Below are positions 2,248-7,373 of a stretch of DNA of 7,463 nt, piece by piece. The position numbers and the translations under genes were made by a program. Origin of the DNA: Anaerolineae bacterium (GTDB taxonomy: Bacteria > Chloroflexota > Anaerolineae > 4572-78 > J111). The notes below the pieces were generated by a model. It saw only the letters and a list, made by a program, of their open reading frames with translations, did not search any database and was not told the origin of the DNA. The DNA lies in assembly GCA_020433835.1 (NCBI GenBank), contig JAGRBY010000363.1, positions 1 to 7,463 of the forward strand, written 5' to 3'. Every line of letters begins with the position of its first letter. Positions within the stretch are counted from its first letter, which is position 1.

Positions 2248-2712
2248 CTATTGTGTTTGGGCTAAAAGTTGTTCGATTTGTTTTTTTATCGGGCCGGGCC
2301 GAACCAAACTCATTTGGATGAGAATTGGCTCACCCTGACCGTCAACTACCATAAGGGTTGGTATTCCACGAACCCCGTACATCGATGCCGCCTGTCGCCC
2401 GACTGCTGTCATAATATCGAGCCGGACAACTTCGGCTTGGCCTGATAAATCGCTCTCTAACCCATCAACGATGGGTTTATTCAATAGACAGGTCGCTCAC
2501 AAGTTGGAATAAAACTCAAGCACTTTGGGCTGACCATTGGTGAGCAGCGCTGTTAGCTCATTATAGCCGTTTACCTCAGCCGGACTGGTGCGCAAAAAAA
2601 TAAACGCCCCAATAATGGCGATGACGACCGCAACAATAAGCCACAATCCCTTATTGGGGTCGGGTGTGTCGTGTTCATACTCAAACGATGCGGGGGACGA
2701 TAATTGACTCAT
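2248..2712 (-). CDS. Membrane-anchored selenocysteine (UxxC) thioredoxin-like protein, UGA recoded
   Basis: Read through one in-frame TGA (2497-2499), this is a 154-residue thioredoxin-fold protein. A short polar N-terminus is followed by a membrane anchor (about 22-40, GLWLIVAVVIAIIGAFIFL) and an extracytoplasmic thioredoxin domain (about 45-152). The active-site segment reads VLEFYSNL-U72-A-T-C75-LLNKP, and the cis-proline loop is VRGIPT (Pro118). The TGA replaces the first, nucleophilic cysteine of CxxC, and the fold continues in the same frame after it. A hairpin downstream fits a bacterial SECIS. The likely role is thiol-disulfide exchange outside the membrane, coupled to the DsbB-type oxidase five bases downstream. 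GAGGAGG four bases before the ATG is a strong ribosome site. UGA is not Trp here: the neighbouring genes have many TGG codons and no internal TGA. The main alternative is a nonsense mutation of the active-site Cys, which the hairpin argues against. No selenocysteine machinery is in the window. Confidence 0.85.
2459..2477 (-). promoter_or_regulatory. Candidate bacterial SECIS hairpin
   Basis: In the mRNA, AACCCAUC (2477-2470) pairs perfectly with GAUGGGUU (2466-2459) around the loop GUU (2469-2467). The loop opens 27 nt after the UGA at 2497-2499, and its first base is G. From family knowledge, bacterial SECIS elements are short stem-loops lying inside the coding region just after the UGA, with a G at the start of a small apical loop, bound by SelB. 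The stem encodes N-K-P-I-V-D-G-L, so the coding sequence also has to satisfy the thioredoxin fold. Confidence 0.8.
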
Positions 2713-3873: not shown

Positions 3874-3882
3874 AGCAAAAAT

Positions 3883-3897
3883 AGGTGACAGTCACCT
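3883..3897. repeat. Palindrome AGGTGACAGTCACCT, copy of a dispersed motif
   Basis: Seven-base arms flank a central A. The core GGTGACAGTCAC recurs at 7269-7280 and, inverted, at 7338-7349. This marks a dispersed repeat family shared by two spacers 3.4 kb apart. Confidence 0.7.
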
Positions 3898-3975
3898 TGC
3901 GATTATTAAGGATAGCCTCACGTCAGTTTCATCATAAAACCGTGGGCCTTGGAATATCTCCTTTTTTCGGCAAAA

Positions 3976-4989
3976 TTACAGTAAAACCTCGTTTAATGCA
4001 TGACGAGGTGTATGTGATTTTTCTCGGCTGCCGTAGCCGAGTCGAAAGATGTGTTGGGGAAAGCCACTTGCAATAGGAACGAGAGATTTTAAAGCCTCTC
4101 GACATTGAGGAACTTCGATGATTTGGGTCATCGGCTGAAGTTGAACACCCAGCGAAGACGCTATAAGTGCAGTCCGCTCAAAAGCCTGACCGGTGGCAAC
4201 ATACGCTTTGCGATTGTCTTCCATCGAAGACAGAATGGCCAAAAACGGGGCATAATTAAGCACCTTTTGTTCCGAGGCCGGCGATAATTTGTCTTGACCC
4301 AGATAAGCCGTAGCCAGACGACCCATTTTAGTAACCAACCAGGATGCACTAAACGCCCCCTCTTTTAGCCAGTAGGTTAACTCCTCTCGGAAAGATGGAC
4401 TGGCAAATTGTAAAGCATCTGCTTGAATCATCAGCGCATCGACCTGTTTTTTTAAGCGTAAGTCATTGGTTAGGTGTAGTTTGATATTGGGTTCAGCGCA
4501 ACAATTTTCTATTTGACTTAAATCGGTTTTAGGGATGGTTAGTGCTTCGTATGCATTGCGACTGGTGTGACGATTGATGATGGCGTAGAACATTTTTTTG
4601 TCTTTTCGAAAGGGTGAAGGCGAGCCGTTAGGTGATAGCAACACCGAGGCAATAAATTCCGGTTGGTCAGCTTCAGGAAAGTAGGTAACCGTATGGCCGA
4701 AGCCAAAATGTTCGGCGGCGATGAGAAAGTTTTCTAAAGCGGCTCCAATACTGATATGCAGCTCCCGTCGGTTGGGATCTGAGGCTGTCAGCCAGCATGA
4801 CGGATCGAGCCAAAACTGGACCTCATCTTCATTTATGGCAAATCGCCAGGGTTGAATGTTATATTTTGAGGGGGCTAAAATAGCATATTGGAGCAGAAAT
4901 TTTTCTTTGTCAACCAGGCTGCCGTAACTGGGATAATCTCGCTCATTAATATGCCAGGGGGTAATTTTGAGATCATAGTTTTGCTGCAT
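3976..4989 (-). CDS. Acg-type FMN-binding nitroreductase-fold protein
   Basis: This is a 337-residue protein resembling the Acg subgroup of the nitroreductase superfamily (two NTR-like halves, flavin-binding; described from mycobacteria, true substrate unclear). Visible hallmarks are LLQYAILAPSKYNIQPWRF (32-50), the usual N-terminal FMN-site segment with the N-x-QPW signature; DPNRRELHISIGAALENF (71-88); RHTSRNAY (140-147); and, near the C-terminus, QPMTQIIEV and a final FRLGYG. No signal peptide or membrane span is seen. I chose the ATG at 4987-4989 because GAGG lies six bases upstream. An in-frame ATG at 5068-5070 would add 27 residues, with a weaker ribosome site (AGAAGA). It is transcribed alone, convergent with the hydrolase, and ends in a terminator-like hairpin. 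In some Acg homologues the flavin site serves to sequester flavin, so catalysis should not be assumed. Confidence 0.87.
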   Translation of the reverse strand: MQQNYDLKITPWHINERDYPSYGSLVDKEKFLLQYAILAPSKYNIQPWRFAINEDEVQFWLDPSCWLTASDPNRRELHISIGAALENFLIAAEHFGFGHTVTYFPEADQPEFIASVLLSPNGSPSPFRKDKKMFYAIINRHTSRNAYEALTIPKTDLSQIENCCAEPNIKLHLTNDLRLKKQVDALMIQADALQFASPSFREELTYWLKEGAFSASWLVTKMGRLATAYLGQDKLSPASEQKVLNYAPFLAILSSMEDNRKAYVATGQAFERTALIASSLGVQLQPMTQIIEVPQCREALKSLVPIASGFPQHIFRLGYGSREKSHTPRHALNEVLL

Positions 4990-5368
4990 TTTACGCCTCG
5001 CTTCGCTATATAGACTTGTTTGGATACGTGCTTTTGGAATCAATCCGCATCCGGAAATGATTCTATCCATCCGGTTATTTCTTCTGCTATCCCGCTTTAG
5101 TTTAACGGAAAATAGAGCCGATTACACCCGACAATTGAGCAGGATTTGCCCTGTATGGCTGTCCAGGCGATGGTTATTGTGGGGATGACGAGGTGATTGG
5201 TTCGTTGATTTGATATTGAGCGGCGTTACTTGCGTGAAGACCAACAGTAAAATGGTTTTTATGCCAGATAAGAGGGTATTACACGATAGCCGGAGGTATA
5301 GGTTGCTCTACCCGATACCTTCTTTAGAGGCTGTTTCCCAACGGAAGGGTAATCGCTACAGAGGTCGC

Positions 5369-7253: not shown

Positions 7254-7373
7254 TTACGCAGTTCAAAAGGTGACAGTCACTGGGCAATAATAAATCGCCC
7301 TATTTAAGCTAAGCGGACGTACATTCTCAATCAAAAAGTGACTGTCACCTTGTTCATTCGCCCAACTGCGTAA
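7254..7373. repeat. MITE-like element with two-part terminal inverted repeats
   Basis: Outer arms TTACGCAGTT (7254-7263) and AACTGCGTAA (7364-7373) match exactly. Inner arms AAGGTGACAGTCACT (7267-7281) and AGTGACTGTCACCTT (7337-7351) match exactly over 15 bp. The 55-base centre has no coding capacity and contains a GGGC...GCCC hairpin (7282-7300). The inner arm motif recurs alone at 3883-3897. The shape suggests a small non-autonomous mobile element or a REP-type hairpin pair. No transposase is present in the window. Confidence 0.75.

Follow-up and report, generated by a model that had tools for sequence, protein, structure and literature searches.

Does the single TGA that interrupts a thioredoxin-like reading frame in an Anaerolineae bacterium end translation, or is it decoded as selenocysteine (Sec)? 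We addressed this question in the window, the whole stretch of 7,463 nucleotides in which the gene lies, and in the relatives of the gene. Our reading, to which we assign a probability of roughly 0.9, is that its product is a selenoprotein with a thioredoxin fold, tethered to the membrane.

The gene, its in-frame TGA and the predicted fold

The features of the locus are collected in Table 1. The original prediction, stated without a strand, had placed one TGA in an otherwise unbroken frame; this is what we found, with the gene on the minus strand. The TGA occupies the first position of the CxxC motif, also as predicted, and the active site reads U-A-T-C with Cys75 intact. Automatic annotation halves such UGA genes. 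ORF calling splits the present one, in the way that had been foreseen, into a 71-residue ORF and a 78-residue ORF started by TTG (codon 77). In the public record, the 78-residue half of the closest relative, L001, is named 'hypothetical protein KDJ65_21010', and the 78-residue half of the window gene is also present, while the 71-residue half of the window gene is absent among the 120 matches listed of the 151 obtained in a public protein search with an alignment query. The same kind of search with the single joined protein gave no match at E ≤ 0.001.

The open tail beyond the TGA is not a chance occurrence, as an 82-codon tail remained open in only 1.2% of 20,000 base shuffles. Between the window gene and L001 (84% identical), dN/dS is 0.136 before the TGA and 0.157 after it, indicating that the downstream half is similarly constrained at the protein level.

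Table 1. Coordinates of the features of the locus within the window
Feature	Position	Strand	Basis
Shine-Dalgarno-like GAGGAGG ahead of ATG	2717–2723	minus	sequence; GGAGG in L001 too
Predicted selenocysteine thioredoxin gene, 154 codons	2248–2712	minus	ATG 2710–2712, TAG 2248–2250; frame otherwise open
N-terminal transmembrane helix, residues 19–40	2593–2658	minus	AF2 helix; hydropathy
UGA codon 72, predicted selenocysteine, UxxC position 1	2497–2499	minus	TGA in L001, L002 and 45/54 family genes (window included)
Cys75, putative resolving cysteine	2488–2490	minus	Cys in 47/54 genes, Ser in 7/54
Hairpin AACCCAUC-GUU-GAUGGGUU, 8 bp, 3-nt loop	2459–2477	minus	27 nt from UGA to loop; bSECIS rules
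Apical loop GUU of the hairpin	2467–2469	minus	loop G and U invariant in 26 aligned UGA members
Cis-Pro loop proline, Pro118	2359–2361	minus	invariant in alignments A1 (31 rows) and A3 (61 rows)
BdbC/DsbB-type disulfide oxidoreductase gene	1805–2242	minus	5 bp downstream; PF02600 51.7 bits; NF002849 133.7 bits

The joined product had been called a membrane-anchored thioredoxin, and both parts of this description are supported. The protein matches the Pfam Thioredoxin family PF00085 with 35 bits (cut-off 23.5), and this is its sole Pfam match at E ≤ 0.001, the DSBA domain being absent. The AF2 prediction (mean pLDDT 90.5) consists of the transmembrane helix, which is also predicted from hydropathy, and a thioredoxin fold with its conserved cis-Pro position, and its best structural matches are ordinary thioredoxins. 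The score against the thioredoxin equivalog model TIGR01068 is 40.5 bits, below the cut-off of 96.8; the protein may thus work like thioredoxin, yet it is not a member of this equivalog. One transmembrane helix probably anchors the protein with its catalytic domain outside, as judged from its relatives. The inter-helix loop is net positive in seven of the ten relatives scored as two-helix proteins, which would place their catalytic domain outside. The N-terminal tail of the window protein itself is acidic, with one K/R and four D/E before the helix, and gives no support for placing the catalytic domain outside.

A Chloroflexota family with UGA and cysteine members

Scanned with the single sequence, the genome collection yielded only L001 and L002, both in the Anaerolineae MAG HKST-UBA12 (G001). 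The neighbours of L001 are like those of the window gene (dsbB, hydrolase, nitroreductase-like and response-regulator genes). L002 is a paralogue elsewhere in the same MAG, 61% identical, and has its TGA at the same codon as L001 and the window gene. A profile built from 31 members, with stops read through, was then run on a set of 400 Chloroflexota genomes taken from a larger group. With a family cut of 86.7 bits, chosen after a gap in the scores was seen and excluding TGA rows below it (e.g. G129 with 64.2, G153:C6 with 58.5 and G326 with 57.7 bits), the family is present in 47 of the 400 genomes. Thirty-nine of these have a TGA, confirmed at the active-site codon in every case, and eight have cysteine only; G164 has one of each. 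Ordinary CGPC thioredoxins at loci L094 and L095 were dropped from the family counts. At these loci (shorter pieces L024 and L025), the Sec-thioredoxin gene is directly preceded by one for a CGPC thioredoxin, whose stop codon is TAA in L094 and TGA in L095. If the UGA is decoded as we propose, the family adds a selenoprotein clade, found in 39 of 400 genomes, to a phylum credited with three selenoproteins in the table of a 2006 survey (PMC1794560).

Fifty-four genes, including those of the window, L001 and L002, were analysed in detail, and position 72 is TGA in 45 and cysteine in nine of them. All seven genes with serine at position 75 are UGA genes, and they form two groups, L083–L085 and the second copies of the tandem pairs in L102, L105, L107 and L108. 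Of the six core pairs of the hairpin described below, L083–L085 retain all six and the tandem UxxS copies four. The UxxS sequences suggest a one-selenol mechanism.

An unrooted tree of the 54 genes, from which the active-site residue and the hairpin-coded residues were left out, needs seven Sec/Cys changes, at least six of which are forced by well-supported (starred) branches; an earlier quick tree had four forced changes. A single clade of cysteine forms was rejected (p-AU 0.0003), and holding L124–L126 together, a group named after the first tree had been seen, gave p-AU 0.013. Since the tree is unrooted, the direction of the changes is not given, though U is the majority state. According to section 10 of a 2026 review (PMC13188914), bacteria rarely replace selenocysteine by cysteine, the documented cases being mainly FdhA and SelD, and the repeated switches in the present family bear on this claim. 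As all eight genomes with only cysteine forms have selA, selB and tRNA-Sec, natural Sec/Cys pairs could be used to test what selenocysteine buys.

A SECIS-type hairpin and the selenocysteine machinery

In the family, a three-nucleotide GUN loop closed by a stem lies 27 nucleotides past the UGA. According to section 5 of the review, bacterial SECIS (bSECIS) elements have a loop of 3–9 nt, a stem of 4–16 bp, a G in the first two loop positions, a spacing of 16–37 nt and a minimum free energy of −7.5 or lower (PMC13188914). The window hairpin conforms to these rules, with −10.4 kcal/mol for a 30-nt piece. So do 34 of the 45 UGA genes, as compared to 13.2 expected from synonymous recodings, while 11 fail the strict rules; for the cysteine genes, the figures are three of nine and 1.4. 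The folding energy of the whole region, tested against synonymous recodings, differed only modestly, with a mean z of −0.84 for the UGA genes (4 of 30 at p<0.05) and −0.12 for the cysteine genes (0 of 5 at p<0.05). This test was too blunt, and position-specific tests of the hairpin were therefore added.

In the hairpin alignment, which holds 26 of the 30 UGA rows and leaves out four UxxS genes, 94.9% of the cells in the six core pairs are paired and 12 cells are changed on both sides. None of 500 shuffles was as high in pairing fraction, in two-sided cell changes or in covariation score, in statistics that, like all those on the hairpin, ignore relatedness among members. Two of the five covariation measures were unexceptional: two pairs showed any two-sided change, a number reached in 107 of 500 shuffles, and there were three further pair types, a number reached in 498 of 500. 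When the partner strand was slid by one to three columns, pairing fell to 26–58%.

Because the stem lies within codons, we searched for paired amino-acid differences. L096 has Gly replaced by Arg, with CCT/AGG; L100 has Ile replaced by Phe together with Asp by Glu; and L087, L088, L091 and L092 have Asp-Gly replaced by Arg-Arg, a stem of five or six pairs being kept in all of them. The 15 UGA genes that had no part in defining the hairpin form 4–6 of the six pairs (mean 5.2), as compared to a mean of 2.2 in the nine cysteine genes, five of which had already been used in the whole-region energy test (Mann-Whitney p = 6e-5). One cysteine member, L127 (G014), keeps five of the six pairs with a CUG loop and may thus retain the remnant of a SECIS from before a change of Sec to Cys.

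We infer the selenocysteine machinery of the window's host from the genome of its relative HKST-UBA12. This MAG encodes SelA (566.9 bits), SelD (363.5 bits) and tRNA-Sec (65.2 bits, anticodon tca), together with a C-terminal piece of SelB that lies at a contig edge and is recognised from two SelB winged-helix domains. The best-scoring SelB match in this MAG was rejected as EF-Tu on the basis of its ORF. The relative's SelD gene (L013, 1483–2535) has a single in-frame TGA, so that this SelD is probably a selenoprotein itself. In the window, neither Rfam at the gathering threshold nor ARAGORN gave a match, the latter for tRNA genes.

Among the 39 TGA genomes, selA is present in 38 at E 1.5e-84 or better (missing in G218), selB is above the cut-off in 34 (missing in G309, G001, G386, G164 and G218), and tRNA-Sec is found in 35 (missing in G309, G386, G218 and G303) at a threshold of 59 bits. 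This threshold was our own choice, made because a 47.5-bit match in HKST-UBA12 that lies above the Rfam cut-off is a tRNA-Ser according to ARAGORN; by Rfam's own cut-off, 44 of the 47 family genomes have a tRNA-Sec match. G218, which has the TGA, no selA match better than 3.4e-4, no selB above the cut-off and no tRNA-Sec at 59 bits, is perhaps an incomplete MAG. The co-occurrence of selA with the family TGA (Fisher p = 0.0014, relatedness ignored) is weak evidence, since selA is above the cut-off in 321 of the 400 genomes and is present in all eight with cysteine forms only.

The other readings of the TGA can be weighed against these data. If it were a real stop, arising from a nonsense mutation, a pseudogene or a sequencing error, the ends of the mechanical ORF and of the public annotation at this codon would be explained; the recurrence of the TGA at this codon in relatives that were assembled separately, and whose identity over the alignment falls to about 24%, and the purifying selection downstream make this very improbable. 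We give equally little credence to two separate proteins, the second of which would start after termination at the in-frame TTG, because the split would cut the thioredoxin fold and part the two active-site residues, and full-length cysteine versions of about 160 residues exist. Slightly less remote, though still highly improbable, is the decoding of UGA as a standard amino acid, by a change of code or by general read-through. None of the five large window genes stops at TGA, and neither does any of the 11 closed large ORFs in L001. Against a change of code, in counts of mechanically called ORFs (some possibly spurious) from de-duplicated loci, TGA is the stop of 4 of 36 distinct ORFs of at least 200 residues in the HKST-UBA12 loci, where it is rare, and of 172 of 390 in the other family loci. 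Moreover, four of the five large window genes are free of internal TGA across almost complete Pfam domains, the only tRNA-Trp seen has the anticodon cca, and the hairpin accompanies UGA and not cysteine.

Decoding as selenocysteine is thus the reading that we prefer. The original prediction of a selenocysteine protein is supported, at the level of sequence, by the UGA and cysteine homologues, by the relative's sel genes and by the conserved SECIS-type hairpin. It had looked for homologues with either UGA or cysteine at position 72, and both kinds exist; it had named a TGA limited to this strain as evidence to the contrary, and L001 and L002 share the codon. Its expectation of sel genes stood, in the relative, for selA, selD and tRNA-Sec, and for selB in part. 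To judge from the sequence, the covariation and the relative's genes, a ribosome reaching UGA codon 72 would meet SelB and Sec-tRNA-Sec bound to the hairpin, and selenocysteine would be inserted in place of termination.

Possible partners and likeness to known systems

By analogy with thioredoxin chemistry, the selenolate of Sec72 would attack a substrate disulfide, and Cys75 would resolve the intermediate to leave a selenenylsulfide. The tethered protein would thereby carry out thiol-disulfide exchange through its selenol. The downstream neighbour is of the BdbC type, its NF002849 score exceeding the cut-off of 124, and the two genes are probably co-transcribed. The gap between them is identical in the window and L001, and the position of dsbB directly after the stop in both fits a DsbA-like role. 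When phmmer was run with the window's DsbB on 50 sequences, whose flanks in many cases extend no further than 5 kb, dsbB was found near the gene only in these two; as it was found near none of the other 48, dsbB was rejected as a family-wide partner. That the protein is the DsbA-like partner of BdbC/DsbB in disulfide making is therefore a guess, and a somewhat doubtful one. The wider proposal, in which the anchored selenothioredoxin acts as the DsbA of BdbC/DsbB in a selenium-based oxidative folding pair, within a family in which Sec and Cys have been exchanged no fewer than six times and two UxxS groups use selenium alone, is in our view unlikely.

The partner step has one rival, which leaves the selenoprotein itself untouched: the protein may be a tethered selenol reductant, either TlpA/ResA-like or peroxide-detoxifying, beside which dsbB stands by coincidence. 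We regard this as an even bet. Selenocysteine usually favours reduction, and the restriction of dsbB to two of the 50 sequences also speaks for a reductive role. So does a group of Anaerolineales-like loci, in which an EF-G-like gene on the opposite strand (judged by sequence) is followed by methyltransferase and metalloenzyme genes instead, as identified by Pfam on L113 only, and so do the CGPC thioredoxin genes upstream in L094 and L095. On the other hand, a BdbC-type gene follows at a distance of 5 bp in both of two diverged genomes, which points to co-expression within this lineage. The neighbours of the paralogue L002 (1–9431) are an ArsR-rhodanese regulator, an MFS transporter, an AhpC-TSA/redoxin-domain protein on the opposite strand and an ORF that, from its sequence, resembles a multicopper oxidase.

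Gram-positive bacteria have a BdbD/BdbC arrangement, in which the gene of a tethered thioredoxin-fold protein lies beside that of a BdbC-type oxidoreductase. The present locus is similar in that a tethered thioredoxin-fold protein is encoded next to a BdbC-type gene (NF002849), but its protein has selenocysteine instead of cysteine and belongs to the thioredoxin and not the DsbA family, and the partnership is putative. The canonical thioredoxin motif is WCGPC. Selenocysteine thioredoxins with UxxC are already catalogued (tables of PMC13188914; PMC9312934), so this kind of protein is known. One of them (PF00085; WP_010956703.1, PMC13188914) shares with the window protein the thioredoxin fold and the selenocysteine at the attacking position; as far as its description goes, the window protein is set apart by its N-terminal membrane helix and by SNLUATC in place of the canonical motif. 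The DsbA-like and DsbG-like selenoproteins of the same review (PMC13188914) are likewise predicted to exchange thiols and disulfides through UxxC, and the window gene adjoins a DsbB-type gene; unlike them, the window protein lacks the Pfam DSBA domain and resembles ordinary thioredoxins in its predicted structure.

SaoT (NF040730), the HUIPC type (NF047660) and TsoB (NF045694) are also thioredoxin-like selenoproteins with UxxC or a similar motif. At E ≤ 0.01, the 31 members match 22 families in all, to which the SaoT and HUIPC models do not belong. TsoB matches 19 of the members weakly (best 9e-8), with 17.2 bits for the window member as compared to a cut-off of 805, and PDO_seleno_TRX matches two (best 5.4e-4). 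No NCBIfam 20.0 model, for selenoproteins or otherwise, is above its cut-off for the window member. The main texts of PMC13188914 and PMC9312934 do not contain the string 'Chloroflex', and no description of an anchored selenocysteine thioredoxin family was found among literature titles and the opening parts of abstracts, a search outside which most of the subscription literature lies.

The rest of the window holds several other features. A trypsin-like protease with a PPC domain (377–1705) contains a YLPLLI stretch, which is common in Chloroflexota, and an Acg-family FMN-binding oxidoreductase is encoded at 3976–5070 (NF047509, 243.8 bits, above the cut-off of 199). A perfect 27-bp inverted repeat with no spacer lies at 205–258, and three copies of a palindromic repeat of the GTGACAGTCAC type, 80–100% identical, are found at 3880–3899, 7265–7284 and 7333–7352.
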